DNA from: Gammaproteobacteria bacterium
GTDB lineage: Bacteria > Pseudomonadota > Gammaproteobacteria > Steroidobacterales > Steroidobacteraceae
Length of the DNA: 32,567 nt
Direction of reading: 5' to 3'
Assembly: GCA_027317845.1 (NCBI GenBank)
Contig: DAHVQK010000051.1
Location: 1-32,567 of the forward strand
The notes under the pieces are model-generated. The model was not told where the DNA came from. It worked only from the letters and a program-made list of their open reading frames with translations, and made no database searches. The translations under genes and the position numbers were made by a program. Below are positions 26-22,262 of the stretch, piece after piece (positions within the stretch are counted from its first letter, which is position 1; each line of letters begins with the position of its first letter).

Positions 26-544
26 ATGAAGCGATTCGCAGGCGTAATTGCTGTCACGTTGATGCTGACTGGATTGGCGTGCTGGATCGCGGCGCCGTCG
101 CAGGCCGCCACGGCGGCGAAGATCTCCTTCGCGAGGGGCTCGCCGCTCCTCAAGGAGAAGCCGCTCAAGATCGTCGCGATGGCCCCCAAGGGATCGCTCC
201 ACAACCCGTACGACGGCAACGCGAAGATGGCCAAAGAGGGTCATGCGCTGTTCATGAGCTACGGTTGCAGCGGCTGCCATGGCGGTGGCGGTGGCGGTGG
301 CATGTGCCCGCCGCTCATCAACGGTGTCTGGATCTACGGCGGAAGCGACGACACGCTGTTCCGCCTCATCTCACTCGGCTCGCAGAAACTCACTCAGAAG
401 GGATACCAGCGGGAGGCCCTGGAGAATGTGGTGGGTCCGATGCCCGAGATGGGAGTCGTGATCAAACAGTCGAGCGATCTATGGAAGATCATCACCTGGA
501 TTCGATCGGCGTACGACGGCCCCCCGAATCACAAGTACCACTGA
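26..544 (+). CDS. c-type cytochrome associated with PQQ-dependent alcohol oxidation
   Basis: N-terminal signal peptide; single CxxCH heme motif (SYGCSGCHGGGGGGGMCPPL); sits upstream of PQQ-system genes. Confidence 0.85.
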   Translation: MKRFAGVIAVTLMLTGLACWIAAPSQAATAAKISFARGSPLLKEKPLKIVAMAPKGSLHNPYDGNAKMAKEGHALFMSYGCSGCHGGGGGGGMCPPLINGVWIYGGSDDTLFRLISLGSQKLTQKGYQREALENVVGPMPEMGVVIKQSSDLWKIITWIRSAYDGPPNHKYH

Positions 545-551
545 TCGGCGC

Positions 552-1787
552 GTGACCGTGCGGCGCGCACCGGGCGGTTTCGGGTTGTTCGCGCTGGCCG
601 TGCTGGCCGGCGCGAGCCTCGCCTTCGTGGCGCCCGCGGCGCCGGTGCAGGCGGCGGTGCGGTCCTTCTCGATCACCTTCCTGCGCAAGACCTATCATTT
701 CAACAAGGAGGTCCTGCCGTCGCTCCTCGAGACTCATCCCGCCGATCTCGGGGTGTCCGGCTCCGAGGAGGCGACCTCCGAGCTCAATACCGCCGGCAGG
801 TTCATCGGCTGGCATTTCACCTTGAATGTCGTCACCGTGCCGGAGGGCGGCAATCTCGCGGCCACGGCGCAACGGCTCCTCGCGCACGGCCCCAGGGTCA
901 TCATCGCCGACCTCGAGGCGAATGATCTCCTCGCTCTCGCGGACCTGCCGGCGGCGCGGAACGCCTTGATCCTCGACATGAGGACGATTGATGACAGCCT
1001 CAGGCAGCGCCAGTGCCGCGCGAATGTCTTTCACATCCTGCCGAACCAGGCGATGCTCACCGATGCGCTGGCGCAATATCTGGTGTGGAAGCGCTGGAGC
1101 CGATGGTTCATCATCCAGGGGCCGACGGCGGGGGATGCGGTGTACGCGGCGGACATCCGCCGCTCGGCGACCCGCTATGGGGCCCGGGTCGTCGCCGAGA
1201 AGACCTACCGTTACAACCCCGGCTCGCGCCGCAGCGACACCGGCTATCAGCAGATCCAGACCCAGATGCCGCTCGCGACCGAGGCCTCGGGCGATTACGA
1301 TGTGATCTTCGTCGCCGACGAGACCGATCTGTTCGGCGACTACCTGCCCTACAACACCTACGCCGCCCGACCGGTGGTGGGCACGCAGGGGCTGGTGGCG
1401 AGCGCCTGGACCCCGGCCTACCAGGAATATGCGGCGCTGCAGATGCAGCAGAGGTTCGATCTCTTCGCCCATCGCGGCATGACCGAGCGTGACTACGGCG
1501 GCTGGCTTGCCGTCAGAATCATCGGCAACGCCGTCATGCGGGCGGGAATCACCTCTCCTCTCGCCATGCGCAAATACCTCAGATCGAAAGACTTCCTGGT
1601 TGCCGGCTACAAGGGGCAGGGGCTCACCTTTCGCCGCTGGGACAACCAGTTGCGTCAGCCGGTGCTGCTCTCGACGCCCCTCATGACCGTCTCCATGTCG
1701 CCGCAGCACGGGTTTCTCCATCCGGGGTACACGACCGATACCCTGGGGTTCGATGAGCCGGAGACGAAATGCCATCTCGGACACTGA
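552..1787 (+). CDS. ABC transporter periplasmic binding protein of the PQQ-dependent alcohol dehydrogenase system (PedA/LutA-like)
   Basis: GTG start, signal peptide, branched-chain amino-acid-receptor-like fold pattern; followed immediately by a YVTN beta-propeller gene as in ped/lut clusters. Confidence 0.75.
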   Translation: MTVRRAPGGFGLFALAVLAGASLAFVAPAAPVQAAVRSFSITFLRKTYHFNKEVLPSLLETHPADLGVSGSEEATSELNTAGRFIGWHFTLNVVTVPEGGNLAATAQRLLAHGPRVIIADLEANDLLALADLPAARNALILDMRTIDDSLRQRQCRANVFHILPNQAMLTDALAQYLVWKRWSRWFIIQGPTAGDAVYAADIRRSATRYGARVVAEKTYRYNPGSRRSDTGYQQIQTQMPLATEASGDYDVIFVADETDLFGDYLPYNTYAARPVVGTQGLVASAWTPAYQEYAALQMQQRFDLFAHRGMTERDYGGWLAVRIIGNAVMRAGITSPLAMRKYLRSKDFLVAGYKGQGLTFRRWDNQLRQPVLLSTPLMTVSMSPQHGFLHPGYTTDTLGFDEPETKCHLGH

Positions 1788-2758
1788 CCGGGCGTCGCGC
1801 CGCGCTGCTCCTGCCCGCCCTCGTGCTGTGCTCCCTCGCCGCGGGAGCCCGTGCGAGCGAGCTGTTCGTCTCGAACGAAATCGATGATACGGTGACCGTG
1901 CTCAACGGCGAGACGTACCAGAGGATCGCGACGATTCCCACCGATCAGCGGCCGAGGGGCATCTTTGCGACGCCGGACCACAGGTACGTGCTGGTGTGCG
2001 ACGGCGATTCGAGCAACATCGACGTGATCGATGCGAAGACGTTGAAGGTCGTGCGCAGGATCGGGACCGGGCCTGACCCTGAAACGCTCGCAATGTCCCC
2101 CTCGGGGGACAAGGTCTACGTGTCCAATGAAAACAACGCCCTGGTCACGGTCATCAATTTCGCCACCGGCAAGTGGATCAAGCAGATCCCGGTCGGCATA
2201 GAGCCCGAGGGGCTTGCAGTGAGTCGGCACGGGCGGACCGTGGTGGTGGTCTCCGAGACGACCAGCATGGCCCATTTCATCGATACGAGGACCTGGAAGG
2301 TCGCGGCCAACATCCTGGTCGACACGAGGCCGAGGATCGCGCAATTCACCCGCGACCAGCGCTATCTGTGGGTTTCCTCCGAGGTCGGGGGGACGGTCTC
2401 GGTCATCGACCCGCGCACCCATCGCATCCTTCACATCATCAATTTCCACATACCGGGTGTGGACCGGGAATACATCGGACCCGTCGGCGTGCGCTTCACG
2501 CCCGACGATCGCACGGCGTTCGTGGCCCTGGGCCGCGCCAACCGGGTCGCCGTCGTCGATGCGCGGACGTACGAGGTCGAGAAGTATATTCTGGTCGGCC
2601 AGCGGCCCTGGCAGATCGCCTTCAGCCCGGGCCACAAGAGGCTCTTCGTCGTCAACGGTCTCACCAATGACCTGACGATCATCGATGTGTCCTCCGAGGA
2701 GGCGGTGAAGTCCGTTCCCGTCGGCCGTCTGCCCTGGGGGATCGCGGTCATCCCGTGA
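1769..2758 (+). CDS. YVTN-family beta-propeller protein, PQQ-dependent catabolism-associated
   Basis: Signal peptide; repeated blades such as 'ELFVSNEIDDTVTVLNGETYQRIATIPT', 'KVYVSNENNALVTVINFATGKWIKQIPVG'; start overlaps the upstream stop by 19 bp. Confidence 0.85.
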   Translation: MPSRTLTGRRAALLLPALVLCSLAAGARASELFVSNEIDDTVTVLNGETYQRIATIPTDQRPRGIFATPDHRYVLVCDGDSSNIDVIDAKTLKVVRRIGTGPDPETLAMSPSGDKVYVSNENNALVTVINFATGKWIKQIPVGIEPEGLAVSRHGRTVVVVSETTSMAHFIDTRTWKVAANILVDTRPRIAQFTRDQRYLWVSSEVGGTVSVIDPRTHRILHIINFHIPGVDREYIGPVGVRFTPDDRTAFVALGRANRVAVVDARTYEVEKYILVGQRPWQIAFSPGHKRLFVVNGLTNDLTIIDVSSEEAVKSVPVGRLPWGIAVIP

Positions 2759-2780
2759 GCCGCCTGCCGGGCGCCACGGC

Positions 2781-3557
2781 TCACTTGGGCGCGCTGGTCG
2801 CGGCGGAGCCGATGAGTTCCCGGTGGTGGCGCAGGACTTCATCGCGCAGCAGCTCGATCTCGGGGCCGCTGTGGCGCTGGCTGCGCGCGAGGCTCACCTC
2901 CACCTCGCCCACCACGTGGGCCGGCGGAGCGGAGAGCAGCACGAGACGGTCCGCGAGCACCAGCGCCTCGCGCAGGTCGTGCGTGACGAACAACACTGTC
3001 GTGGGCCGGGCGCGCCACAGCGTGAGCAGGAGCTCGCGCAACTGCTCCACCGTATCGTGATCGAGCGACACGAAGGGCTCGTCCATGAGCAGCAGGTCCG
3101 GCTCGATCGCAAAGGCGCGCGCGATCGCCACCCGGCGGCTCATCCCGACCGACAGCTGTGGCGGATAGAGATCCTGCGCCCCGGGGAGGCCGACCGCCGT
3201 CAGCATGTCCTTGACGACGGCATCGGCGCGATCCGGGGGCAGCACCAGCGCGATGTTCTCGTAGACGGTGCGCCAGGGAAGCAGCCGCGGCTCCTGAAAG
3301 ACGTAGCCCACCCGCGCCGGGCGGCCGTCGGGGCGCGGCGCAAGCCTCACTTCCCCGACATAATCGCGGTCGAGCCCGGCCACGATATTGAGAAACGTCG
3401 TCTTGCCGCAGCCCGAGGGACCGACGAGGGCGACGAGCTCGCCCGCCGCGATCCTGAGCGAGAGACCCGCGAGGGCCTCGTGAGACGCTGCGCCGCGCGC
3501 CCGCGCATAGCGTTTCTCGCGGATCTCGGCGAGCAGGGCCGGCGTCACGGGCGCCAT
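2781..3557 (-). CDS. ABC transporter ATP-binding protein (nitrate/sulfonate/taurine type)
   Basis: Walker A GPSGCGKTT, Q-loop FQEPRLLPW, LSVGMSRR signature, Walker B LLLMDEPF, H-loop VTHD. Start taken at MAPVTPALL; the longer ORF to 3959 is an out-of-place extension. Confidence 0.9.
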   Translation of the reverse strand: MAPVTPALLAEIREKRYARARGAASHEALAGLSLRIAAGELVALVGPSGCGKTTFLNIVAGLDRDYVGEVRLAPRPDGRPARVGYVFQEPRLLPWRTVYENIALVLPPDRADAVVKDMLTAVGLPGAQDLYPPQLSVGMSRRVAIARAFAIEPDLLLMDEPFVSLDHDTVEQLRELLLTLWRARPTTVLFVTHDLREALVLADRLVLLSAPPAHVVGEVEVSLARSQRHSGPEIELLRDEVLRHHRELIGSAATSAPK

Positions 3558-4324
3558 CGTCCGGCGCGCCGCTCGAGCGGCTGGAAGAGCACCCACTCGA
3601 TCAGCTGGATCACCGCCACGAAGGCGATGGTGTAGGCGAGGATGCCCGTCACGTCGAACTGCTGGAAGTAGAGCTGGATCTCGAAGCCGACACCGTTGCT
3701 GCGCCCGAGGAGCTCGACGATCAACACGATCTTCCACACGAGGGCGAGGCCCGAGCGGGCGGCCGCGAACAGATAGGGGTAGAGCTGCGGCAGGATCACG
3801 TGCCGAAGCGTCCGCCACCGGCCGACATGAAAGCTCTGCGCCATCTGCGAATAGTTCCGATCGAGCGCGCGGGCGCCTTCGCGCAGCGTCACGGCGACGG
3901 CCGGGATCTTGTTGACCGCCACGGCGCCGATCGCCGCCGCCTCGGTGAGCCCGAACCACACATAGGCCAGCACGATGATGACGAGCGCCGGGAGATTCAG
4001 CAGCAATACGAGCCAGCTGTCGAACAGGACGTCCAAGGTCCTAGAGCGGCCCATCACGATGCCGATCGCGGTGCCGACGGTCATCGCCACGAGAAAGGCG
4101 GCCGTCACCCGCGCCAGGGTGATGCCGAGATTGAACGGCAGCGTGCCATCGGCGCACAGGCGCGCGAGCTCGATGAATACGGCGCTCGCCGAAGGCAGCA
4201 TGCGGCTGTGCAGCGACTCGGCGGCGAGCTGCCAGATGGCGATGAGCAGGGCGATCGAGCCGATACGCTGCGCCAGCGAGAAAGCCCGCAGCCAGAAGGC
4301 GCGCTGCGCGGCGCTCGAGCTCAT
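3545..4324 (-). CDS. ABC transporter permease (NitT/TauT, SsuC-like)
   Basis: Polytopic protein with EAA-like loop ('EGARALDRNYSQMAQSFHVGRWRTLRHVILPQLYPYLFAAARSGLALVWKIVLIVELLG'); overlaps the ATPase start by 13 bp. Confidence 0.9.
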   Translation of the reverse strand: MSSSAAQRAFWLRAFSLAQRIGSIALLIAIWQLAAESLHSRMLPSASAVFIELARLCADGTLPFNLGITLARVTAAFLVAMTVGTAIGIVMGRSRTLDVLFDSWLVLLLNLPALVIIVLAYVWFGLTEAAAIGAVAVNKIPAVAVTLREGARALDRNYSQMAQSFHVGRWRTLRHVILPQLYPYLFAAARSGLALVWKIVLIVELLGRSNGVGFEIQLYFQQFDVTGILAYTIAFVAVIQLIEWVLFQPLERRAGRWRP

Positions 4325-5299
4325 TCAGTAACGCACCGATTCGAGGAACGTGCCGGGCTGCAGGGTGGAGCTCGAGCCGACCAGTGTTCTGCCCCCGAGG
4401 CGTGCGAAGAGGGCGTAGAGGGCTTCGGCCTCATGGCGCTCACGCGTGCCCCAGTGCAGTGGAATGCCGGCCCGGAAACCCTTGCGCAGCGCCGCGAGCT
4501 GCGCCGGGTCGCGCGCCCCGGTTCTCGGTCCGAGCCAGCGCCACTCGGCATCCGATGTCGCGAGGATCGACTCCGCCTGACGCGTGGCGCGCACGAAGCC
4601 GGCCAACGCGCGGGGATGCGCCCTTGCCCACCGATCGGACACGACATACCCCACGAGCGGGATCGGGACTTTGAAGCCGAGCTGGCGCAGCGCATCGCTC
4701 ATCGGCAGGACCACCGGAAGGCCCCGGCTCGTCAGCTGCGCGGCGAAATTCCAGTACGTCAGCACGGCATCGAGGCGACCGGCCAGGAGCTCCTGATTGA
4801 GCAGGGGCGGGGAGCCGTAGGAGACTCGCGCATCGCGTGCGAGGTCGATGTGCCGCGCGCGCGCGAGCGCTTGCAGGATCACCCAGCTCTTATCGAGTGG
4901 GCTGCCGGCCACGCCGAGCCGGCGATGGCGCAGGTCGGCGAGGCGATGGATCGGCGCGCCGCGTGCGGCCACCAGCGCGCCGAGATCGGTCGAGAACGGA
5001 AAGAACGTCCAATGCGCGCCGGAGGCGCGTTCACGGGAAACCCACAGCCAGTCCGACACCGCGCAATCGACGCGCCCGGCCTGCAGCGCCACCAGGGTCG
5101 CCGGGGTGCTCGCCAGCGCCAACTTGTCGATGCGGATGCCGTTCGCCCTGTCGAGTCCGTGATGCGCGATGACATCCATCACCCAGTTCACGGTGCCGAA
5201 CTTCAAGACCGCGATGCGCAGTGTGGGCGCCGCCCGCGCGATCCCGGGCCCGAGGGCGGCCACGAGAAGCAGGACGATATATCGGCGGACGCAGCGCAA
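4325..5299 (-). CDS. ABC transporter substrate-binding protein (NrtA/SsuA/TauA-like)
   Basis: Signal sequence RYIVLLLVAALGPGIARA then 'TLRIAVLKFGTVNWVMDVI...'. Stop abuts the permease start. Start uncertain: TTG 5299 with upstream GGGGGAA preferred; ATG 5404 is the alternative. Confidence 0.8.
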   Translation of the reverse strand: MRCVRRYIVLLLVAALGPGIARAAPTLRIAVLKFGTVNWVMDVIAHHGLDRANGIRIDKLALASTPATLVALQAGRVDCAVSDWLWVSRERASGAHWTFFPFSTDLGALVAARGAPIHRLADLRHRRLGVAGSPLDKSWVILQALARARHIDLARDARVSYGSPPLLNQELLAGRLDAVLTYWNFAAQLTSRGLPVVLPMSDALRQLGFKVPIPLVGYVVSDRWARAHPRALAGFVRATRQAESILATSDAEWRWLGPRTGARDPAQLAALRKGFRAGIPLHWGTRERHEAEALYALFARLGGRTLVGSSSTLQPGTFLESVRY

Positions 5300-5609
5300 C
5301 GGTCGTGTTCCCCCGCGGGCCAGCGGCCCTTCCGGGCGTGTCGCCCAGGATCGTGCATCGCCGCAACAGGCCAGACAAGCCCTGCGGCGGTGAGACGATC
5401 GCATTATGGCATACTGTTCCCGATACGACACAGATCGGTCCGCCGCGGGGATCGGGCCCTGTTTTCGAATGCGCCGTTGGCGGGCCGGGGGGATTTGTTG
5501 TCCAATGCCTGATGGCGGGACGCAGCGCCGCAGGCCTCGGTCCGACCCGTGTGCCGGGCGCGCGGGTGCGCCCCGGGCGGCGGCATTGTCGGCCGTGAGA
5601 CGATGAGGC

Positions 5610-6404
5610 GTGATGTTGGAGGTCAAAACACAGACGGGAGACGCCGGCGCCGCGGGCCCAACGGCCCGGGAGGCGCCGCCGCTGGTCGTTGAGGGACTCA
5701 GTCACGCGTTCGGCAAGCGGCAGGCCTTGCGAGAGGTATCTTTCCGACTCGAGCGCGGCGACCGGACGATGCTGCTCGGTCTCAATGGCGCCGGCAAGAC
5801 GACACTCTTCTCACTCATCACCCGCCTGTACAATCATCGCGGCGGCTCGATCCGGATCTTCGGGTGGGAAATTCAGCGCAAACCCTCGGAGGCGCTCGCC
5901 CGGCTCGGCGTCGTGTTCCAGCTCCCGACCCTGGATCTCGAGCTCTCGGTCGCGCAGAATCTCTTCTATCACGCCGCCCTGCACGGCCTGCCGCGCCGTG
6001 AGGCAGCGGCGCGCTTGAAGCGTGAGATAGAGCGTGTCGGACTGACCGATCGGCTCCGCGAGAATGCGCGCACATTGAGCGGCGGACAACGGCGTCGCGT
6101 GGAGATCGCGCGTGCCCTGATCCATCGGCCGAGGCTCCTGCTCCTCGATGAGCCGACGGTGGGGTTGGACGTCGCGAGCCGGCAGTTCCTGCTCGATCAT
6201 GTCCGCATGCTGTGTCGTGAGGAGGGGCTTGCGGCCCTGTGGGCGACACACCTGATCGATGAGGTCGATGACGAGGCGCGCGTGATCGTGCTGCACCGGG
6301 GCCAGGTCCTTGCGGAAGGGCCGGTTCCGGAGGTGATCCGCCGCGCGAATGCCACATCGATGCGCGAGGCGTTCGATAAGCTGACCGGCGAGCACCTCGA
6401 ATGA
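5610..6404 (+). CDS. ABC transporter ATP-binding protein of the PQQ-alcohol dehydrogenase system (PedB/LutE-like)
   Basis: Walker A LGLNGAGKTT, signature LSGGQRRRVEIARAL, Walker B LLLLDEPTVGLD, 'ATHLIDE'. Confidence 0.88.
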   Translation: MMLEVKTQTGDAGAAGPTAREAPPLVVEGLSHAFGKRQALREVSFRLERGDRTMLLGLNGAGKTTLFSLITRLYNHRGGSIRIFGWEIQRKPSEALARLGVVFQLPTLDLELSVAQNLFYHAALHGLPRREAAARLKREIERVGLTDRLRENARTLSGGQRRRVEIARALIHRPRLLLLDEPTVGLDVASRQFLLDHVRMLCREEGLAALWATHLIDEVDDEARVIVLHRGQVLAEGPVPEVIRRANATSMREAFDKLTGEHLE

Positions 6405-7207
6405 AGCCCGTCCATTACTACCGCTGCATGCGCGGCATCGTGTGGCGCGAGGCGTTGCGCTTCCTCAACCAGCGCGGCAGGTTTCTTGCGGCCCTGGTGC
6501 GCCCGCTGGTGTGGCTGCTCATCTTCGCCACCGGATTTCGCTTCGTGCTCGGCGTGTCGATCATTCCGCCTTACCAGACCTACATCCCGTACCAGGTCTA
6601 CATCGCGCCGGGTCTCATCGGCATGATCCTGATGTTTCAAGGCATGCAGAGCTCGCTGTCGATGGTCTGGGACCGCGAGACCGGCAGCATGCGCACGCTG
6701 CTGGTGAGCCCGCTGCCGCGCTGGTACCTTCTGCTCTCGAAACTGATCGCGGCGGTCATCGTCTCGGTCCTGCAGGCGTACGTCTTCCTGATCATCGGCT
6801 ATTTCTGGGGCATTCACCCGCCGCGCTGGGGCTACCTCACGGTGCTCCCGGCCCTGATCCTCTCGGGCATGATGCTGAGCGCACTCGGCCTGTTCCTGTC
6901 GTCGGTGATCCGTCAGCTCGAGAATTTCGCGGGCGTCATGAATTTCGTGATCTTCCCGATGTTCTTCGCCTCATCCGCGCTGTATCCGCTGTGGACCGTG
7001 AAGCAGGCGAACGAGAAGCTCTACTACCTCTGCATGGCGAACCCCTTCACACACGCGGTCGAGCTGGTCCGCTTCGCGCTCTACGAGAAGTTCAACCATG
7101 TGTCATTCGCCGTCGTCGGCGGGTGTCTTGTCCTCTTTGCGGTCCTCGCGATCGTGGGTTACGACCCCGGGCGAGGCCTCATCGCCCGTCGCCAGGGGGG
7201 CGAGTGA
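6401..7207 (+). CDS. pedC: ABC-2 type permease, PedC-like
   Basis: ABC-2 permease features ('QGMQSSLSMVWDRETGSMRTLLVSPLPRWYLLLSKLIAAV'); start overlaps the ATPase stop (ATGA). Confidence 0.85.
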   Translation: MKPVHYYRCMRGIVWREALRFLNQRGRFLAALVRPLVWLLIFATGFRFVLGVSIIPPYQTYIPYQVYIAPGLIGMILMFQGMQSSLSMVWDRETGSMRTLLVSPLPRWYLLLSKLIAAVIVSVLQAYVFLIIGYFWGIHPPRWGYLTVLPALILSGMMLSALGLFLSSVIRQLENFAGVMNFVIFPMFFASSALYPLWTVKQANEKLYYLCMANPFTHAVELVRFALYEKFNHVSFAVVGGCLVLFAVLAIVGYDPGRGLIARRQGGE

Positions 7208-9715: not shown

Positions 9716-9732
9716 CACTGCGCCGCGCAGTG
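9716..9732. promoter_or_regulatory. Palindrome 1: CACTGCG-CCG-CGCAGTG (candidate activator site)
   Basis: Perfect 7-bp arms, 3-bp spacer, in the divergent TonB-receptor/ADH intergenic region. Confidence 0.6.
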
Positions 9733-9746
9733 TTCCAATACGGAAC
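9732..9746. promoter_or_regulatory. Inverted repeat GTTCC-AATAC-GGAAC
   Basis: Perfect 5-bp arms; abuts palindrome 1; a further GGAACA half-site lies at 9761-9766. Confidence 0.35.
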
Positions 9747-9802
9747 GGAGCATCGCGAATGGAACAGCAGGATGCGACGCGGGACGCGGTGTGCTCAGCA
9801 GT

Positions 9803-9821
9803 CCACTGCGCGGCGCAGTGG
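9803..9821. promoter_or_regulatory. Palindrome 2: CCACTGCG-CGG-CGCAGTGG (candidate activator site)
   Basis: Perfect 8-bp arms; the 17-bp core is the reverse complement of palindrome 1; centre-to-centre distance 88 bp. Confidence 0.6.
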
Positions 9822-9947: not shown

Positions 9948-9963
9948 TGGCATGAGGCTTGCA
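9948..9963 (+). promoter_or_regulatory. Sigma-54 (RpoN) -24/-12 promoter for the PQQ-ADH
   Basis: TGGCATGAGGCTTGCA: GG-N10-GC spacing, one mismatch to TGGCACGNNNNTTGCW; about 75 bp upstream of the ADH start codon. Confidence 0.75.
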
Positions 9964-10038: not shown

Positions 10039-11751
10039 ATGACCAGGTTTCAAGCCTTCCTTCCGCGGCGCTCCCTGTGGCGGATCGCCCTCTCCGCGGT
10101 CCTGCTCGCGCCGGCCGCGGGAGCCTTCGCCGCCGGCTATCCGGTGGTCACCAACGCACGGCTGCTGCACGCCGCGAGCGACAACGGCTGGCTGATGTTC
10201 CTTCGCGACTATACCGGTGACAGTTATGCGCCGTTCCGCCAGATCAATACGCGCAACGTGTCCGGCCTGAAGCCGGCGTGGGATTACAAGATCGGCATGA
10301 AGCAAGGCTTCGAAGGGTCCCCGATCGTCAATGGCCGCTACCTGTTCGTCACGACGCCGAAGGATCACCTGATCGCCTTCGATGCGGTGACGGGCAAGGT
10401 GCTCTGGAAGTACCAGAAGAGCCTGGCCGGCGTCGGACTGAAGACGGTGTGCTGCGACGTGGTCAACCGGGGTGTGGCGCTATACGGGAACAACGTGTAC
10501 ATGGCGACACTGGACAATTACGTTGTCGCCCTGAACGCGCAGACCGGCAAGGTCGTGTGGCAGAAGCAGATCAAGCCGGCGGACGTGGGTTATGCGATGA
10601 CGCTGGCGCCGCTTACTCTTGAGGGCATGGTGATCGTTGGAACCTCAGGTGGCGAGTACGGCGCGCGCGACTTCGTCGTGGCGCTCGATGCCAGGACCGG
10701 ACGCGAGATCTGGCGCCAGTACACGGTCCCCTCGCCCGGGCAGCCGGGCAGCGATACCTGGCCCAAGGGCGAGATTTACCAGCACGGTGGCGGGTCGGCG
10801 TGGCTTACGGGCACCTACGATCCCTCGAGCGACACCCTGTTCTGGGGAGGAGGGAATCCCGGGCCGTGGCTCGCCAAGCTTCGCCCCGGCAAGAACCTGT
10901 TCACGGATTCCCTGCAGGCGTTCAATCCGCGCACCGGCCAGCGCAAGTGGTACTACCAGTACACGCCGCATGACTCCTGGGATTACGATGGCGTCAACAC
11001 GCCGATGATCACCAGCCTGACTTACCACGGCAGGCGCTACCAGGCCATCGTCCATGCCGACCGCAACGGCTGGCTGTATGTCATCGACCGTCGCACGCAC
11101 AAGCTGATCTACGCGGTGCCCTTTGCCCACGCCATCTCGCTCGCAGGCTTTCGCGACGGCCTGCCCTATACGGACGATGCGGTGCGGCCGGCGGTGGGGA
11201 AGCAGATCTTCACGTGCCCGAGCTTCCTCGGCGGCAAGAACTGGTGGCCCGCGTCGGTCGATCCCGCCACGCACATGGTGTACGTGCCGACGATCCATAC
11301 CTGCATGACCATGAAAGGTGCTCCGACGTTCTACAAGCCGGGTCTGCCCTATCTCGGGGAGACCTTCAAGGTCGTACACGACCCGAACGACTCGAATTGG
11401 GGTGCCCTGCAGGCGTTCGATCTCGATACCGGCAAGCGGGCATGGAACCACGAGACCCGGCTCCCCTGGGATGCGGGCGCGATGAGCACCGCCGGCGGGC
11501 TGGTGTTCAGCGGGACTCCCCAAGGACACCTTCTGGCGCTCGATGCGCGCACGGGCCAGGTGCTCTGGAGGAGCCCGAAGCTCTCCTCGGGTATCATCGC
11601 TCCGCCGGTGACCTACCGAGTCGATGGCAGGCAGTACGTGGCCATTCTCGCCGGCTGGGGTGGCGCGACTCCCATCTGGGGCGGCGACATGGTCAAAAGT
11701 GTCGCCAACATCCCGGTCGGTGGTCACTTGTACGTCTATTCTCTGAATTAG
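10039..11751 (+). CDS. PQQ-dependent alcohol/methanol dehydrogenase, lanthanide-type (XoxF/ExaF/PedH-like, clade unresolved)
   Basis: Signal peptide; vicinal cysteines KTVCCDVVNRG; W-docking-like repeats ('ALDARTGREIW', 'AFDLDTGKRAW'); HDSWDYDGVN motif; E206 (GGEYG) and N273 (GGGNPGPW). Confidence 0.95.
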   Translation: MTRFQAFLPRRSLWRIALSAVLLAPAAGAFAAGYPVVTNARLLHAASDNGWLMFLRDYTGDSYAPFRQINTRNVSGLKPAWDYKIGMKQGFEGSPIVNGRYLFVTTPKDHLIAFDAVTGKVLWKYQKSLAGVGLKTVCCDVVNRGVALYGNNVYMATLDNYVVALNAQTGKVVWQKQIKPADVGYAMTLAPLTLEGMVIVGTSGGEYGARDFVVALDARTGREIWRQYTVPSPGQPGSDTWPKGEIYQHGGGSAWLTGTYDPSSDTLFWGGGNPGPWLAKLRPGKNLFTDSLQAFNPRTGQRKWYYQYTPHDSWDYDGVNTPMITSLTYHGRRYQAIVHADRNGWLYVIDRRTHKLIYAVPFAHAISLAGFRDGLPYTDDAVRPAVGKQIFTCPSFLGGKNWWPASVDPATHMVYVPTIHTCMTMKGAPTFYKPGLPYLGETFKVVHDPNDSNWGALQAFDLDTGKRAWNHETRLPWDAGAMSTAGGLVFSGTPQGHLLALDARTGQVLWRSPKLSSGIIAPPVTYRVDGRQYVAILAGWGGATPIWGGDMVKSVANIPVGGHLYVYSLN

Positions 11752-11758
11752 GTCCGCC

Positions 11759-12259
11759 GTGAGTGTCCGTTTGCTGCAAATCTGCGCTTATGCGCTCGTT
11801 CTCACCGCGCTGCTCCCGCGGCGCGGTGAGGCGGCATCGCCCCCGCCGGCGTTGTACACACGGTCCCAGGCGCTCCAGGGGGCGTCGGCGTTCGAGTGGA
11901 AATGCGCCTCATGCCACGGGCATCACCTGCAAGGTGGCGTGGGGCCGGCGCTCGAGGGCCCGATCTTCGCCTCGGCGAAATCGGACTTCACCATCCAGCA
12001 GGTCTACGAGTTCCTCTCAGTGGAGATGCCCGCGTACGCGCCGGGTTCGCTCACCCGCACACAATACCTCGACATCACGGCCTTTCTCCTGCGGCAGAAC
12101 GGTTACCCGGCGGGGGTGAGGGCGCTGACGGATCGGATTGCCAGCCATTGCACGGTGCCGTTGCTCTATCGGCCTGCCGCCAAAGCGTCCCCGAAGGTTG
12201 TGAAGTCGAAGGCGCTGGCGGGTAAGCCGTTGATCGTTCCGCGGGTGAATGCGCCCTGA
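11759..12259 (+). CDS. c-type cytochrome, probable electron acceptor partner of the PQQ-ADH
   Basis: GTG start, signal peptide, CASCHGHHLQGGVGPALEGP heme motif; directly downstream of the ADH. Confidence 0.85.
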   Translation: MSVRLLQICAYALVLTALLPRRGEAASPPPALYTRSQALQGASAFEWKCASCHGHHLQGGVGPALEGPIFASAKSDFTIQQVYEFLSVEMPAYAPGSLTRTQYLDITAFLLRQNGYPAGVRALTDRIASHCTVPLLYRPAAKASPKVVKSKALAGKPLIVPRVNAP

Positions 12260-12287: not shown

Positions 12288-12469
12288 TCGGGCGGTGCGT
12301 CGACTGCTCCGAAATGCAACACCGGGCGGCCGCCCCCGGGGCGGCCCATTGCGCCGGAAGGCCGGATGCGGTATTCCACGATGGACATTCGTTCGAGGCG
12401 CGAACTAAGGTCGTAATCACCGTAGAACCGGTCCAAGAGCGGGCACCCGATGCCGCTCGAGGGGGGGGG

Positions 12470-14470
12470 ATGAGATTTGAATCTGCAGCTGCGCAAGAGC
12501 CATCGCCTCCGGCGGGCGCGGGTGAGCGCACGAAGGTCGTCTCGCTGTGGCACGAGAGGGCGCGCCGCCTGGGGTTGAGCGAGCGGCAGCGGCCGGACTT
12601 CGGTGCGCTGGCGCGGGGTGAGCTCGCAAGGCTCGTCGAGCAGCATCACGCGCTCTACCGGCATGCCCTGCCCGTGATGGAGGTGCTGCACCAGCAGATC
12701 CTCAACACCCACAGCATGGTGATTCTCACCGACCAGCGCGGTCTCATCGTGCACTCGCTCGGGGACGCGGATTTCCTCGAGAAGGCCGAGCGGGTGGCGC
12801 TCAAGCCCGGCGTGCTCTGGTCCGAGGACAGCAAGGGGACGAACGCCATCGGCACCGCGCTCACCGAGCGACGCGCCACGCTGGTGCACGGGAGCGAGCA
12901 TTTCCTCGCGGTGAACCGTTTCCTCACCTGCTCATGTTCGCCCATCCGCGATCCGCGCGGCGAGGTGATCGGAACGCTCGATGTTTCGGGGCCCCAGGAA
13001 AGCTATCACGCCCACACCATGGCGCTGGTGCGCATGTCGACGCAGATGATCGAGAATCACCTGTTCGTCGATCGCTTCGGCGAGGCGCTGCGCATTCACT
13101 TCCACAGCCGCCAGGAGCTAATGGGGACGCTGCTCGAGGGCATCGCGGCCTTCGATGAGGGAGGACGCTTCCTCGCCGCCAATCCAAGTGGTCTCACGCA
13201 GCTCGGGATCGGTCCCGAGAGCGCCTCGGCGCACAGCCTGCAGTCCCTGTTCGGCCTCGATGTCGGGGTGTTGCTCGGCAGATGCCGGGGCGAGTCGCTC
13301 CTGCGCCTGCATTTGCGCAATGGCACGCCCGTGGTGGGCCGGGTCGAGTTTCGCGCGCGCGCCGAGGCGCCGACCTGCGGAATCGAGCCGCTCTGCGGCG
13401 CGGAGCCGGGTCTGCCGGAGCAGGGCGCGAGTCCCGCGACGCCCCGTGGCGCCCGGGTGTCTCAGGCCTCAGGCACCCCGCGCGCCTCGAGGAAGCCGAC
13501 CGGTGGACCCTCGCTCGCCGATCTCGACACCGGAGATCCGGTCATCGCCGAGGTGCTCGCCAAGGTGCGCAAGGTGCAGGCGCATGACATTCCCATCCTC
13601 ATTCTCGGGGAGACCGGCACGGGCAAGGAGCTCCTGGCGCAGGCCATCCACAACGAGTCCGCGCGCCGGCATCAACCCTTCGTCGCGGTCGACTGCGCCT
13701 CGCTTCCCGAGTCCCTGATCGAGGCGGAGCTGTTCGGCTACGAGGAGGGCGCGTTCACCGGGGCTCGCCGCCGGGGCAGTCCGGGCAAGATCCTGCTCGC
13801 CAACGGCGGAACGTTGTTTCTGGATGAGATCGGCGAGATGCCCCTGGCGCTGCAGACACGACTGCTGCGCGTGCTGCAGGAGCGGGCCGTACGGCCATTG
13901 GGCGGACAGCGGCCGATCGACGTCGATATCGCGGTCATCTGCGCCACGCATCGCAACCTCAAGGACATGATGCGCCGGGGCGAGTTCCGCGAGGATCTGT
14001 ATTACCGGCTGAACGGTCTGGTGGTGCGGTTGCCCGCGTTGCGGGAGCGGCGGGACCTCGAGGAGCTGATCCGCCGGATCCTGAGCGCGCAGTGCGCGAC
14101 GGCGTCTTCCCTCTCGCCCGAGGTGTTGGCGCTCTTCCGGGCCTGCCGCTGGCCAGGCAACATCCGGCAGCTGACCAACGTGCTGCACATCGCGGGCGTC
14201 ATGGCCGGGGCGGGCCCGATCGGGCGGGCCGAGTTGCCGGAGGATTTTCTCGACGATCTGTCGGTGCCTGAGCCCCAGGCGCAGCCGCCGCGTGCCGCCG
14301 CGCCGGGCGAGGTGAAGTTGAGGGAGCTGCACCTCGCCACGGTCGCCGCGGTGCTCGAGCGCAACGCCGGCAATGTCTCGGCGGCGGCCCGCGTGCTCGG
14401 GGTCTCGCGCAACACCGTCTACCGGGCGTTGAGGAGCCAGGCGCCCGCTCCGGCGCCGTCCGTGGAGTAA
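12470..14470 (+). CDS. Sigma-54-dependent transcriptional activator, AcoR-like (GAF - AAA+ - Fis HTH)
   Basis: AcoR-type N-terminus ('LKPGVLWSEDSKGTNAIGTALTERR...'), GETGTGKE Walker A, GAFTGA loop, C-terminal Fis HTH ('NAGNVSAAARVLGVSRNTVYRAL'). ATG 12470 chosen; the ORF opens at 12314. Confidence 0.92.
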   Translation: MRFESAAAQEPSPPAGAGERTKVVSLWHERARRLGLSERQRPDFGALARGELARLVEQHHALYRHALPVMEVLHQQILNTHSMVILTDQRGLIVHSLGDADFLEKAERVALKPGVLWSEDSKGTNAIGTALTERRATLVHGSEHFLAVNRFLTCSCSPIRDPRGEVIGTLDVSGPQESYHAHTMALVRMSTQMIENHLFVDRFGEALRIHFHSRQELMGTLLEGIAAFDEGGRFLAANPSGLTQLGIGPESASAHSLQSLFGLDVGVLLGRCRGESLLRLHLRNGTPVVGRVEFRARAEAPTCGIEPLCGAEPGLPEQGASPATPRGARVSQASGTPRASRKPTGGPSLADLDTGDPVIAEVLAKVRKVQAHDIPILILGETGTGKELLAQAIHNESARRHQPFVAVDCASLPESLIEAELFGYEEGAFTGARRRGSPGKILLANGGTLFLDEIGEMPLALQTRLLRVLQERAVRPLGGQRPIDVDIAVICATHRNLKDMMRRGEFREDLYYRLNGLVVRLPALRERRDLEELIRRILSAQCATASSLSPEVLALFRACRWPGNIRQLTNVLHIAGVMAGAGPIGRAELPEDFLDDLSVPEPQAQPPRAAAPGEVKLRELHLATVAAVLERNAGNVSAAARVLGVSRNTVYRALRSQAPAPAPSVE

Positions 14471-14870: not shown

Positions 14871-15854
14871 TCAAGGTCTGCTGGAGCCCCGGACGTGTTG
14901 CAACTCCTTTCTGCCTTCGATCCAGTACCAGGATAGCAACGCCGGGGCCCCGAAGAGAATCTCCCGCATGCGCTTGGCGAGCGACAGCGCGAGCGCGAGA
15001 TCTCCGTCGATGCCGAGCAGGTGTCCCACGCCGATGAGCGTCGCCTCCTGCACGCCCAGTCCCGCGGGCACGAGGAAGATGAAATTGCGCGCCACCTGCG
15101 TCAGGCTCTCGATCGCAAGGGCCGCGCCATACCCCACGGGATGTCCGAGCCAGCGCAGCGCCAGCCAGGTCTCGATGACCGAGGAGAGGAGCCCGGCGAA
15201 CTGCCAGCCGAGGGTCCCCAGGAGGCGCGCCGGCTGGTTGATGAGCGCGCGAATGGCCGCATCGAGATTCGCGGACTTTCCGTTGAGAAAGCTCAGTGTC
15301 TCCTCACCGAGCATCCGCACCGCCAGCTTCTCCAGGCGCTCGAACACCGAGCCGTTGCGCAGCAGCACGGCGGCGAGCAGGATCACCGGCAGACTCGCGC
15401 CGAGGCCGATCAGCGCTTCACTCACCGAATGCACCGTGTGCGTCACGCGCAGCAGGCAGGAGATTCCCAGGGCGACGAACAGGTATTGGCTGAACAGGGT
15501 GATCAGCGTCTCGGTGGTCACGCTGGCGGCCGCCACCACCCCGTCAGTCCCCTTGGCGGCGAGCAGCCGGATCCCGACGAGCTCTCCGCCGATGTTGGCC
15601 ACAGGCAGCAGGCGGTTGACCGCCTCGCGCACGCTGGCGATCCAGAACAGCGTGCCCGGTGCAACCCGTTCCTCGAGCAGCGCCTGCCAGCCGCGCGAGT
15701 CGAGCGCGATGGGCAGGGTGTGCAGCGGTACGAGCCACAGCAGCACCCATCCGGCGCGCACGAGGGGTGTCAGGATGGCGGTGCCCTCGTGAGCGATCAG
15801 GCCAATCAGCAGAGCGAGGCCGGCGATGAGGGCGATGCGGACGGCGAGTCTCAT
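14871..15854 (-). CDS. hpnL: Hopanoid biosynthesis-associated membrane protein HpnL
   Basis: LPG-synthase-TM-like polytopic protein ('FLVPAGLGVQEATLIGVGHLLG'); start overlaps the hpnK stop. Confidence 0.85.
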   Translation of the reverse strand: MRLAVRIALIAGLALLIGLIAHEGTAILTPLVRAGWVLLWLVPLHTLPIALDSRGWQALLEERVAPGTLFWIASVREAVNRLLPVANIGGELVGIRLLAAKGTDGVVAAASVTTETLITLFSQYLFVALGISCLLRVTHTVHSVSEALIGLGASLPVILLAAVLLRNGSVFERLEKLAVRMLGEETLSFLNGKSANLDAAIRALINQPARLLGTLGWQFAGLLSSVIETWLALRWLGHPVGYGAALAIESLTQVARNFIFLVPAGLGVQEATLIGVGHLLGIDGDLALALSLAKRMREILFGAPALLSWYWIEGRKELQHVRGSSRP

Positions 15855-16723
15855 GCGGCGCGCGGGGACCTCATGGGTTCCTGGGCGCGCACCAGGCTGA
15901 GAAACCCTCCGGTGGCCGAGCCCGAGGCGGCAACCGCTGCGCGCACGCGGGGGCTGAGCAGCGCATCGAGCTCCTCGCGGTGGCGGTATTGGCTCATCGC
16001 CGGCGTCAGGGCGCCACGGGTCCCAGGATGCAGATAGATTTCGCTCACCCCGTCGGGCAGTTGGGTGAGGATCCGGAGCAACGCCGCCTCGTCCATCGCG
16101 CCACTGTCGGTCACGCCGAAGACCTGGTCGTTGTGGGTCACTCCCGCGGCGCGCAGGCGGCGCTTCATGAGTGCGAGCCATGGCGTGAGCAGTCTCGAGG
16201 CCGCCCCCTTCAGCGGGCCCGCCCGGCGCGCGACCCAGACGGGCTCCCTGGGCAGTCTCACGGCCGCGAGTCCAAACTCACGCCCGATGCGCAACGCCAT
16301 CTCGAGCAGTGTCGGATGCAGGTGGAAGTGCTTGTGGGCGTTGACATGGTCGAGCGGCAGGCCCGTGCGGGCAAATGCCTCGAATTGAGCGCGGATTTCC
16401 GCCTCGAGCTGGCGGCGGACAGTGGGCATCGCGAAGAAACGCAATCCCTGGCGTGCCATGGAGTCCCGGAAGCGTCCCGAGGCGTCGACCAGCGCCGGGA
16501 TGCGCCCAGGCGGCAACACCGAGCGCCCATCGGCGAGCACCAGATGCAATCCGACCGCAAGTCCAGGCAGCGCTCGCGCTCGCCGCACGGCATCAGCGGC
16601 TGCAGGCGCGCCCACCATCAGACTCGCCGTGGTGAGCACACCTTCGCGGAAGGCCATCTCGACGGCTTCGTTGACGGCCTCATGCAGGCCGTAGTCATCG
16701 GCGGTGATGATCAGGAACTTCAC
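15851..16723 (-). CDS. hpnK: Hopanoid biosynthesis deacetylase HpnK (YdjC-like)
   Basis: 'LIITADDYGLHEAVNEAVEMAFREGVLTTASLMV', 'HVNAHKHFHLHPTLLEM' metal-binding patterns; cluster position. Confidence 0.88.
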   Translation of the reverse strand: MKFLIITADDYGLHEAVNEAVEMAFREGVLTTASLMVGAPAAADAVRRARALPGLAVGLHLVLADGRSVLPPGRIPALVDASGRFRDSMARQGLRFFAMPTVRRQLEAEIRAQFEAFARTGLPLDHVNAHKHFHLHPTLLEMALRIGREFGLAAVRLPREPVWVARRAGPLKGAASRLLTPWLALMKRRLRAAGVTHNDQVFGVTDSGAMDEAALLRILTQLPDGVSEIYLHPGTRGALTPAMSQYRHREELDALLSPRVRAAVAASGSATGGFLSLVRAQEPMRSPRAA

Positions 16724-16766
16724 GCAGGTCCGCTCGCCGGATCACTCTCGTGCTCCGGCCCCGCAG

Positions 16767-18191
16767 TCACGCCTCGTGCGCGCGCAGGAAGCGGAAGAAC
16801 TCCACGCCCTCGCGCAGCCGCCGCTTGGTCATCTCCCAGCTGCGCAGCATCTCCCCGGTGAGTTCGGCGATCTTGCGCGGCCGGAAGTAGAACCGTTTGT
16901 AGAAGGTCTCGATCCCGTGATAGATCTCTTTGGCCGAGAGGTGCGGGTAGCTGATGGGCGAGAGCTGCACGCCGCGGTCGTTGACCAGGTTGAGGTCCTC
17001 GTGCGCGGTGATCCAGCCGTTCTCGACCGCTTCGGCATAGAGCTGCGTGCCGGGGTAGGGGGCGGCGAGGGAGACCTGGATGGTGTGTGGATTGATGTCC
17101 ATCGCGAACTGGATGGTCTCGCGGATGGTGTCGCTGGTCTCACCCGGCAACCCCAGGATGAAGGTGCCGTGGATGGTGATGCCCAACTTGCGACAGTCGC
17201 TCGTGAAGCGACGCGCGATGTCGGTGCGCAGGCCCTTCCTGATGTTGTGCAGGATCTGGTCGTTGCCCGACTCGTAGCCGACCAGCAGCAGGCGCAGGCC
17301 ATTGTCCTTCATGATCTTCAGCGTCTCGTAGGGGACGTTGGCCTTGGCGTTGCACGACCACGTGACCCCGAGCTTGCCGAGTCCGCGGGCGATCTCCTCC
17401 ACGCGCGGGCGAAAGTCGGTGAAGGTGTCGTCGTCGAAGAAGATCTCCTTCACCTGCGGCATGTTCTCCTTGATCCAGCGCACCTCGTCGACGACGCTCT
17501 GGGCGCTGCGCACCCGGTAGCGATGGCCGCCGACCGTCTGCGGCCACAGGCAGAAGGTGCACTTGGAGCGGCAGCCCCGTCCGGTATAGAACGATACGTA
17601 GGGGTGCTGCAGGTAACCGATGAAGTAGTTCTCGATGGTGAGATCGCGCTGGTAGACCGGAGTGACCCACGGCAGATCGTCCATGTTCTCGATCATGGCC
17701 CGGGCGGGGTTGTGCTCGATCTGTCCGTCTGGCCTGCGGAATGAGAGGCCCATGATGGTGGGGAAGGGCCGCCCCTCGGCGACTTCCTTCAGCGTGTAGT
17801 CGAATTCCTCGCGGGCCACGAAGTCGATGGCACGCGAGGCTCCGAGGGAGCCCGCCGGATCCACCGCCACCTTCGCTCCCACCATGCCGACGAGCAGATT
17901 CGGGTTCTCCTCCTTCAGGAGTTCGGCCACCTTGGCGTCGGTGGGGAAGGAGGGGGAGCTGGTGTGCATGACGATGAGGTCGTATTGACGCGCAAGCGGC
18001 AGCACATCGGCCATGGACAGCCCATCGGCCGGGGCATCGAGCAGGCGGCTGCCGGGCACGAGCGCCGCCGGCTGCGCGAGCCACGTCGGATACCAGAACG
18101 AGCGGATCTCGCGCTTCGCCTGGTAGCGCGCGCCGGCGCCTCCGTCGAATCCGTCGAACGACGGAGCTTGCAGAAACAGCGTCTTCATCAT
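16767..18191 (-). CDS. hpnJ: Hopanoid biosynthesis radical SAM protein HpnJ
   Basis: Radical SAM motif GCRSKCTFCLWPQTVGGH, B12-binding-like N-terminus; start at MMKTLFLQAPSFDGFDGGAG. Confidence 0.9.
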   Translation of the reverse strand: MMKTLFLQAPSFDGFDGGAGARYQAKREIRSFWYPTWLAQPAALVPGSRLLDAPADGLSMADVLPLARQYDLIVMHTSSPSFPTDAKVAELLKEENPNLLVGMVGAKVAVDPAGSLGASRAIDFVAREEFDYTLKEVAEGRPFPTIMGLSFRRPDGQIEHNPARAMIENMDDLPWVTPVYQRDLTIENYFIGYLQHPYVSFYTGRGCRSKCTFCLWPQTVGGHRYRVRSAQSVVDEVRWIKENMPQVKEIFFDDDTFTDFRPRVEEIARGLGKLGVTWSCNAKANVPYETLKIMKDNGLRLLLVGYESGNDQILHNIRKGLRTDIARRFTSDCRKLGITIHGTFILGLPGETSDTIRETIQFAMDINPHTIQVSLAAPYPGTQLYAEAVENGWITAHEDLNLVNDRGVQLSPISYPHLSAKEIYHGIETFYKRFYFRPRKIAELTGEMLRSWEMTKRRLREGVEFFRFLRAHEA

Positions 18192-18201
18192 GAGTACGTC
18201 C

Positions 18202-19371
18202 TCAGGTAATCGGGCGGGCCGAGCCGTCGCGGGCCACGCGGTAGCGCTGCTGCCGCCAATGGACGTCCCGCGCCGCGAAACCCCAGCACCAGAGCGCAAA
18301 GCCGAGCACATCGCCCACCGCCAGCGCCAAAATCCGTCTCCAGAGTCCCGCACGGTCCGATTCCGGCGCCTGCGCCGCAGGTCCTGGAGCGTAAACCAGT
18401 AAATGTAGCATTACCCGCACCGCCACGGTTGCGCCCAAAAGAGTGAGCGCCGTTGCGCCCCCGCTGAGCGCCCAGCCGAGCGCCGCGACCGGCACGCCGA
18501 AAGTCACTCCCGCGGAGGCGTATCCCCCTGGGCGTACCGCGCGGATGGTCCGCAGCCATCGGGTCTCGTGCCGCGCCAGCTGCCGGAAGGTGCGCTCATC
18601 GACCAGGGTCTGCACCTCGATGTCCGAGAGCACGGTGGCCAGGCCCAGCCGCCGGCTCAGCTCACCGATCCGATAGTCGTCGGCGAGCTGATCGGCGATG
18701 GCGGGGAAGCCCCCGATGGCCGTGAGCGTCTCGCGCCGCAGCGCGATGGTGGCCCCGAATGCGAAGGCTCGCGAGCCGAACAAGGCTGCCACTCGCACCG
18801 AGGGCATGAACCAGTCGTTGACGAACAGCGCGCCGAGCTCGGACCAGAGCTTTGCCTCGCTTGGGCGGTGGGCCGGCCGCCCCCGGTACGGGCAGGTGAC
18901 GATGCCGACCCGCGGGTCCGCGAGCGGCGCGCACACCCCCTCGAGGTAGCCGGGCGGCACGTGCACGTCGCTGTCGGCCAGCACCAGCCACTCATGGCGG
19001 GCCGACTCCATCATATTGATGAGGTTGCTGACCTTGGCGCTGTGACCGTGGCGGCGGGGGTCAACCACCACGTCGATGTCGAGCGCGGGAAATTCCCGCT
19101 CGAGCCGGCGGACGGCCTCGAGCGCGGGGTCCGTCGGGTCCTGCAGACCGAATATAATCTGCACCCGGTCCGGATAGGCTTGCCGGCACAGGGAGCGCAA
19201 ACCCTCGTCGAGATGCGGTTCCGCCCCGCATAACGGCTTGAGCACGGTCACGGGGCGCAAGGCGCCGGACGCTGAGGCCGCCGTTTTGTTGCGCCCAAGC
19301 GTCACTGCCACTGAGGCGATGATCAGGTAGCCCAGTGCGGCGGCGGCAAGAAGGAGACCCAGGGCGGTCAT
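18202..19371 (-). CDS. hpnI: Hopanoid biosynthesis glycosyltransferase HpnI
   Basis: GT21-like: 'PVTVLKPLCGAEPHLDEGLRSLCRQAYP', 'DSDVHVPPGYLEG', 'RHETRWLRTIR'; start at MTALGLLLAAA. Confidence 0.88.
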   Translation of the reverse strand: MTALGLLLAAAALGYLIIASVAVTLGRNKTAASASGALRPVTVLKPLCGAEPHLDEGLRSLCRQAYPDRVQIIFGLQDPTDPALEAVRRLEREFPALDIDVVVDPRRHGHSAKVSNLINMMESARHEWLVLADSDVHVPPGYLEGVCAPLADPRVGIVTCPYRGRPAHRPSEAKLWSELGALFVNDWFMPSVRVAALFGSRAFAFGATIALRRETLTAIGGFPAIADQLADDYRIGELSRRLGLATVLSDIEVQTLVDERTFRQLARHETRWLRTIRAVRPGGYASAGVTFGVPVAALGWALSGGATALTLLGATVAVRVMLHLLVYAPGPAAQAPESDRAGLWRRILALAVGDVLGFALWCWGFAARDVHWRQQRYRVARDGSARPIT

Positions 19372-19523
19372 GCTCGGACCCGTTACAGTGAACGTGGAGG
19401 CGGCTATCATGTCCAAAACCATCCCCACGCTGCGGACTGCTCCATGAGCGAGAGAGCCAGAGGACTTCGGGCCCATGAACGGCGCATAGGGTACACGGTC
19501 GGGCGTGCACGAGGGATGGCATA

Positions 19524-20135
19524 ATGGATCGGGACAGTGGCGAACCGGATATGTTGCAAGGGAGCGACAATGGGGTCGGCGCGGAGGCGCTGATCCTGGT
19601 GGATGAGACGGATCGCGAGGTCGGCCATGCCAGCCGATCCCGCTGCCACGAGGGCAGGGGATTGCTGCACCGGGCGTTCTCGCTGTTCATCTTCAATGAC
19701 CGGGGCGAGCTGTTCATCCAGCAGCGCTCGGCGGCGAAGCGGCTCTGGCCGTTATACTGGTCGAACAGCTGTTGCAGTCATCCCCGGCGCGCCGAGAGCA
19801 TGGACGGCGCGATCCATCGGAGGCTGCACGAGGAGCTCGGGCTCGATTGCCTATTGCACTTCCTGTTCAAGTTCCAGTATCAAGCACAGTTTGACGGCGC
19901 CGGGGCCGAGCATGAGCTGTGCTCGGTGTACATCGGGCGCAGCTCCGCACCCGTGCGTCCCAACCGTGAGGAGATCGCGGCCTGGCGCTGGGTGAGCCCG
20001 CGCACGCTCGACCGGCAGATGCAAGAAGAGGGCGGTGAGCGCTTCACGCCCTGGTTCAAGCTCGAATGGGAACGGATCAGGCGCGACCACGGGCAGGCGC
20101 TGCGCGCGCTCGAGGGTTCCGCGGCGGCACGATAG
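19524..20135 (+). CDS. idi: Isopentenyl-diphosphate delta-isomerase, type I
   Basis: NUDIX-like; 'LFIQQRSAAKRLWPLYWSNSCCSHPR', 'RRLHEELGL', 'EHELCSVYIG'. Confidence 0.9.
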   Translation: MDRDSGEPDMLQGSDNGVGAEALILVDETDREVGHASRSRCHEGRGLLHRAFSLFIFNDRGELFIQQRSAAKRLWPLYWSNSCCSHPRRAESMDGAIHRRLHEELGLDCLLHFLFKFQYQAQFDGAGAEHELCSVYIGRSSAPVRPNREEIAAWRWVSPRTLDRQMQEEGGERFTPWFKLEWERIRRDHGQALRALEGSAAAR

Positions 20136-20161
20136 ACAGGGGCTTCGTCTTTACGGAGCCA

Positions 20162-20180
20162 GCCGGTCGATGAGACCGGC
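20162..20180. other. Hairpin GCCGGTC-GATGA-GACCGGC in the idi-hpnH intergenic region
   Basis: Perfect 7-bp arms, 5-nt loop, 20 bp upstream of hpnH. Confidence 0.5.
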
Positions 20181-20200
20181 CCAACCATGGGAGTCGGATT

Positions 20201-22247: not shown

Positions 22248-22262
22248 TCGCCCTTCGCCGCC

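Follow-up and report, generated by a model that had tools for sequence, protein, structure and literature searches.

Does the quinoprotein encoded within the window (the whole stretch of 32,567 nucleotides analysed) depend on a lanthanide, and which genes would supply and control such an enzyme? An earlier note had predicted lanthanide dependence from the translated gene, crediting it with a complete lanthanide-type ligand signature. The gene and its signature are located as follows.

10039..11751 (+): soluble PQQ-dependent alcohol dehydrogenase (ADH), lanthanide-type (TIGR03075; alignment to 6zcw, 4mae and 1flg; ligand read-out)
10981..10989 (+): lanthanide signature, codons 315-317, D-Y-D (sequence and structure alignment)

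The ADH open reading frame is real, begins with ATG and encodes 570 amino acids that matched TIGR03075 with 563 bits (cut-off 480) and Pfam PQQ at 9e-72. GGEYG occupies codons 204-208 (E206), N273 lies within GGGNPGPW, and HDSWDYDGVN spans codons 311-320 (D315 and D317). Direct alignment to solved structures placed the catalytic D315 and the lanthanide ligand D317 on the WD[FY]D motif of PedH (6zcw) and XoxF (4mae), and E206, N273, D315 and D317 all aligned with the metal ligands of these two enzymes. The alignment confirmed the earlier note's claims that the ligand set is complete at these codons and that the catalytic Asp is followed two residues later by a second Asp, which falls exactly on the lanthanide-coordinating position. 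An alignment with Asp317 off that position, which the note had named as grounds for refutation, was not obtained. The contrast that it drew between Asp at this +2 position in XoxF and PedH and a non-acidic residue in MxaF was also borne out. MxaF of Methylobacterium nodulans, a control recognised via its mxaF-J-G-I operon, has Ala there (WDYA), and an assignment of the ADH to MxaF was rejected. In structure alignments the +2 residue is Ser in ExaA (1flg, WDFS) and Thr in the type II quinohaemoprotein ADH (1kv9, WDFT). ExaA and MxaF depart from the ADH ligand set only at the position of D317, and E206 and N273 were invariant in a 22-row alignment. The protein also carries an adjacent cysteine pair, C138-C139. 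It is a type I soluble enzyme lacking the C-terminal haem c domain, as its 570 residues contain no CxxCH and gave no cytochrome match in Pfam. An AlphaFold2 model from 14 sequences had a mean pLDDT of 63 and low values at residues 206-208, 273-288 and 312-319, too weak for active-site geometry.

The D-x-D motif is the accepted sign of lanthanide dependence; among marine PQQ dehydrogenases, 61% have Asp at +2 (PMC11996626). Of 32 more distant homologues obtained in this analysis, all from outside the clade of the query, 21 have it as well. Because the motif was aligned by homology, a random match is not the concern; the high base rate is, and the signature alone would make an ordinary annotation. 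Within the clade, Asp at +2 was kept in all 13 non-identical members (>50% identity to the ADH), which is consistent with selection on the site.

Independent context came from the genes upstream.

26..544 (+): second c-type cytochrome, heading the transporter cluster (Pfam Cytochrom_C; TIGR03872 42 bits, cut-off 148)
552..1787 (+): PedA1/LutA-like periplasmic binding protein (TIGR03863 431 bits, cut-off 414)
1769..2758 (+): PedA2-like YVTN beta-propeller protein (TIGR03866 422 bits, cut-off 287)
5610..6404 (+): PedB/LutE-like ABC ATPase (TIGR03864 336 bits, cut-off 302)
6401..7207 (+): PedC/LutF-like ABC permease (TIGR03861 397 bits, cut-off 241)
7235..~9643 (-), start codon inferred: TonB-dependent receptor, divergent to the ADH (Pfam TonB barrel and Plug)

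Positions 552-7207 hold a complete PedA1A2BC/LutABEF-type lanthanide ABC transporter, all four proteins of which exceeded curated cut-offs. PedA1A2BC is essential for lanthanide-dependent growth in Pseudomonas putida (PMC6839425), and the homologous LutE/F are required in Methylorubrum extorquens (PMC7391723). Taken together, the ligand alignment and this independent transporter context make lanthanide dependence the best-supported reading, and the prediction of the earlier note is upheld as a prediction: judged from sequence, the ADH is very probably a lanthanide-dependent PQQ enzyme with probable lanthanide import genes beside it. The association with the transporter did not extend across the genus, where PedC was present in 4 of 12 genomes with the ADH and 11 of 46 without it (p = 0.49), and is thus confined to the closest lineage. 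Inserted within the transporter cluster on the opposite strand (2781-5626) is an NMT1/taurine-nitrate-type ABC transporter comprising binding protein, permease and ATPase; a binding protein-permease-ATPase set also adjoins the PedH-like ADH of an Azospirillum locus (L049).

The TonB receptor is probably a LutH-like outer-membrane receptor for lanthanides or lanthanide chelators. Among its best plasmid matches was a receptor of M. nodulans (35% identity, 94% coverage), whose gene is followed by one response-regulator gene and then by a gene for a four-EF-hand protein with DPDxDG loops. By its sequence, this last protein is likely a lanmodulin. It is encoded on the M. nodulans plasmid (L070, 15167-15571) between the LutH-like receptor and an mxa operon, and is annotated only as EF-hand. 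No lanmodulin was found in the window. An alternative identity of the window's receptor as PqqU was rejected (NF041535, 74 bits against a cut-off of 1200).

Downstream of the ADH lie a cytochrome and a regulator, and the region upstream of the ADH contains candidate control elements.

11759..12259 (+): small c-type cytochrome with one CxxCH (Pfam Cytochrome_CBB3 1.7e-8; adjoins the ADH in relatives too)
12314..14470 (+): sigma-54-dependent activator of AcoR/DhaR-like architecture: GAF, AAA+ with GAFTGA, Fis HTH (Pfam Sigma54_activat 1.5e-67, GAF, HTH_8)
9948..9963 (+): sigma-54 -24/-12 promoter TGGCATGAGGCTTGCA, upstream of the ADH (conserved in the clade)
9731..9747 (no strand): probable upstream activator site, inverted repeat TGTTCC-N5-GGAAC(A) (conserved in relatives)

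The cytochrome at 11759-12259 is the probable electron acceptor of the ADH; it had no good match to MoxG/XoxG (TIGR03872 only 22 bits, cut-off 148). The order transporter-receptor-ADH-cytochrome-activator was the same in L004, whose ADH is 97% identical, and in L005, the relatives nearest to the window. In Burkholderia multivorans, a TonB receptor and an ADH, each homologous to that of the window, are arranged divergently, with a homologous sigma-54 regulator and pqqABCDE nearby. On its other side, the ADH system of the window adjoins a hopanoid biosynthesis cluster (14871-27176), in which HpnL, HpnJ and HpnH were above cut-off and squalene-hopene cyclase and others were recognised by reading.

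The product of 12314-14470 is probably the activator of the ADH operon, and regulators 53-54% identical to it adjoin the ADHs of Burkholderiaceae. A TGGCAYG..TTGC -24/-12 element was present upstream of the ADH in all 14 clade loci examined, as well as in B. multivorans, against a chance expectation of 0.22 per window. In the 14 loci its distance from the reported start of the ADH match is 91-219 bp; in Burkholderiaceae, where this match begins after the signal peptide, the element is in reality closer to the start codon. The TGTTCC-N5-GGAACA repeat, or a close version, occurred further upstream than the promoter in most relatives, with a weak copy in L014, and none of 300 shuffles reached it in eight loci. 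Two perfect palindromes, CACTGCGC-N-GCGCAGTG, lie at 9716-9732 and 9804-9820, 88 bp apart, and the assembled genome contains no further exact copy. They were rejected as the operator because relatives have degraded versions or none, and the TGTTCC-N5-GGAACA repeat was therefore preferred. The conserved promoter and the downstream activator gene provide good evidence for predicted sigma-54 control of the ADH operon.

A tree of 52 rows grouped the ADH with Caballeronia, Paraburkholderia phymatum and MAGs from its own genus in one starred clade. This clade had the ExaA/PedH group as its sister and stood a long way from XoxF; the ADH belonged neither to XoxF nor to the PedH/ExaF clade (ADH type 2b). 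Because a long-branch Paracoccus sequence takes part in this sister relation too, the fine placement is uncertain. The clade spans mine-type gammaproteobacterial MAGs and Burkholderiaceae, and the host bacterium, whose genome is 63% complete, is related to uncultured mine-site lineages. The clade enzyme occurred at ≥70% identity in 12 of 58 genomes of the window's genus and, in a class-wide sample of 369 genomes, in only one other, there at 58%. This patchy spread suggests horizontal transfer. To our knowledge no enzyme of the clade has been assayed with lanthanides, and the searches made here found none. Two relatives carry two different lanthanide-signature ADHs near each other (L006, 2511-4361 and 6670-8376; L014 likewise); one ADH of each pair groups with XoxF and is accompanied by a MoxJ-like gene, and the other belongs to the query clade. 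Caballeronia zhejiangensis A33_M4_a, the strain whose plasmid is L047, features in work on an insect-symbiosis island that carries a PQQ-ADH, PQQ genes and a sigma-54 Fis regulator (PMC9088363).

The ligands would also be compatible with a metal-promiscuous ADH, in which D317 permits a lanthanide but the cell mainly uses Ca2+ or either metal. The motif has been read as indicating 'at least facultative' lanthanide use (PMC11996626), and several genomes have the ADH without the PedC transporter. Furthermore, the Ca-type PedE retains 60-80% activity at 10 mM lanthanides (PMC10409515), so metal specificity is not perfectly readable from one residue. PedH, however, has the same ligand set and is active only with lanthanides (PMC5487730), and in this lineage a predicted lanthanide transporter and a probably LutH-like receptor adjoin the gene; we consider promiscuity unlikely.

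An XoxF-type methanol dehydrogenase serving methylotrophy is less probable again, and we hold it to be very unlikely. The WDYDGVN signature is identical and the ADH is 39% identical to XoxF 4mae, but the tree set its clade apart from XoxF, no XoxJ-type gene adjoins the ADH in the window, and in relatives the neighbouring gene encodes an ExaC acetaldehyde dehydrogenase. Hardly credible is a loss of PQQ-dehydrogenase activity, as in the 'acido-empty-quinoprotein' group: the 386.7 bits to TIGR04528 fell below its cut-off of 650, whereas TIGR03075 was passed, and there is strong conservation of the metal ligands, Cys-Cys pair and tryptophan motifs, none of which is disrupted. Lanthanide dependence thus remains the preferred reading.

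Genes near the ADH cluster of relatives bear on cofactor supply and substrate. PqqU-like receptors were encoded near it in L007 (14347-16545, -) and L012 (14336-16600, -), with 660 and 642 bits; as these scores are below the cut-off of 1200, each is a divergent member. Across the genus, a PqqU-like gene was present in 12 of 12 genomes with the ADH and 17 of 46 without it (p = 0.0001, without correction for relatedness). PqqC was absent from 8 of the 12 ADH genomes, including G022, G053 and G060 (96-99% complete). G050, the genome most closely related to that of the window, does have PqqC. The absence of PqqC together with the presence of a PqqU-like receptor suggests PQQ scavenging, which is likely in some relatives (see PMC12124388) and probably does not occur in the window's own genome. 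G022, G053 and G060 are candidate PQQ auxotrophs using lanthanide enzymes. An ExaC acetaldehyde dehydrogenase, above cut-off, adjoins the ADH in L007 and L012; from this and from the relatedness to ExaA/PedH, we infer that the ADH probably acts on ethanol and other short-chain alcohols.

The preferred reading can be put as a model. The ADH would be exported as a soluble enzyme whose active site contains PQQ and a light lanthanide held by E206, N273, D315 and D317, with D315 acting as the catalytic base. PQQH2 would hand its electrons to the neighbouring cytochrome c (11759-12259), which would feed them into the respiratory chain. The metal would enter through the neighbouring LutH-like TonB receptor and the PedA1A2BC-like ABC transporter. 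The downstream AcoR-type activator, acting through the upstream inverted repeat, would turn on the operon at the sigma-54 promoter in response to an inducer that is probably an alcohol or aldehyde. More speculatively, and with rather less than even confidence, we propose a separate lineage of lanthanide ADHs in mine-site gammaproteobacteria and Burkholderiaceae that uses a sigma-54 activator in place of the known lanthanide switches, and in which several species rely wholly on imported cofactors: the metal through TonB/ABC uptake, and PQQ, whose synthesis is missing, scavenged through a PqqU-like receptor. If true, the preferred reading would extend predicted lanthanide use to non-methylotrophic bacteria known from metagenomes of mine sites, in which rare earths probably have a higher solubility. 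It would also offer a clear, testable gene set of transporter, receptor, enzyme, cytochrome and regulator, and a sigma-54 circuit for a lanthanide enzyme, unlike the PedS2/R2 and MxaY systems.

Among characterised systems, the lanthanide ethanol dehydrogenases PedH (P. putida) and ExaF (M. extorquens) share with the ADH the soluble PQQ-ADH type, the four ligands, the adjacent Cys pair and a PedA1A2BC-type transporter in the neighbourhood. The ADH is 39% identical to PedH and belongs to a sister clade. PedH is controlled by PedS2/R2 and AgmR, whereas the query locus has a sigma-54/AcoR-type regulator; its ADH also adjoins a probably LutH-like TonB receptor, a component that P. putida does not have (PMC6839425). 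XoxF methanol dehydrogenases have the D-x-D metal site in common with the ADH (39% identity to SolV XoxF) but differ in clade and cytochrome, and no XoxJ-type gene lies next to the ADH in the window. The Ca-dependent ExaA/PedE and MxaF share the fold, E, N and catalytic D but have Ser or Ala where the ADH has Asp317. Like the PedA1A2BC/Lut uptake system, the window has all four ABC components and a TonB receptor near the ADH; it differs by the opposite-strand NMT1/taurine-type insert, and no lanmodulin was found in it. The Burkholderiaceae PQQ-ADHs of the query clade (B. multivorans, Caballeronia, P. phymatum) are 56-57% identical, with Asp at +2, a homologous sigma-54 Fis regulator and a sigma-54 promoter. 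The stretches read around these Burkholderiaceae ADHs showed no PedABC. B. multivorans has a homologous TonB receptor, as at the query locus, and unlike it has pqqABCDE and an acetate-CoA ligase nearby. Against these systems the enzyme class is a known one; the clade, its sigma-54 control and the cofactor-scavenging relatives are less explored.
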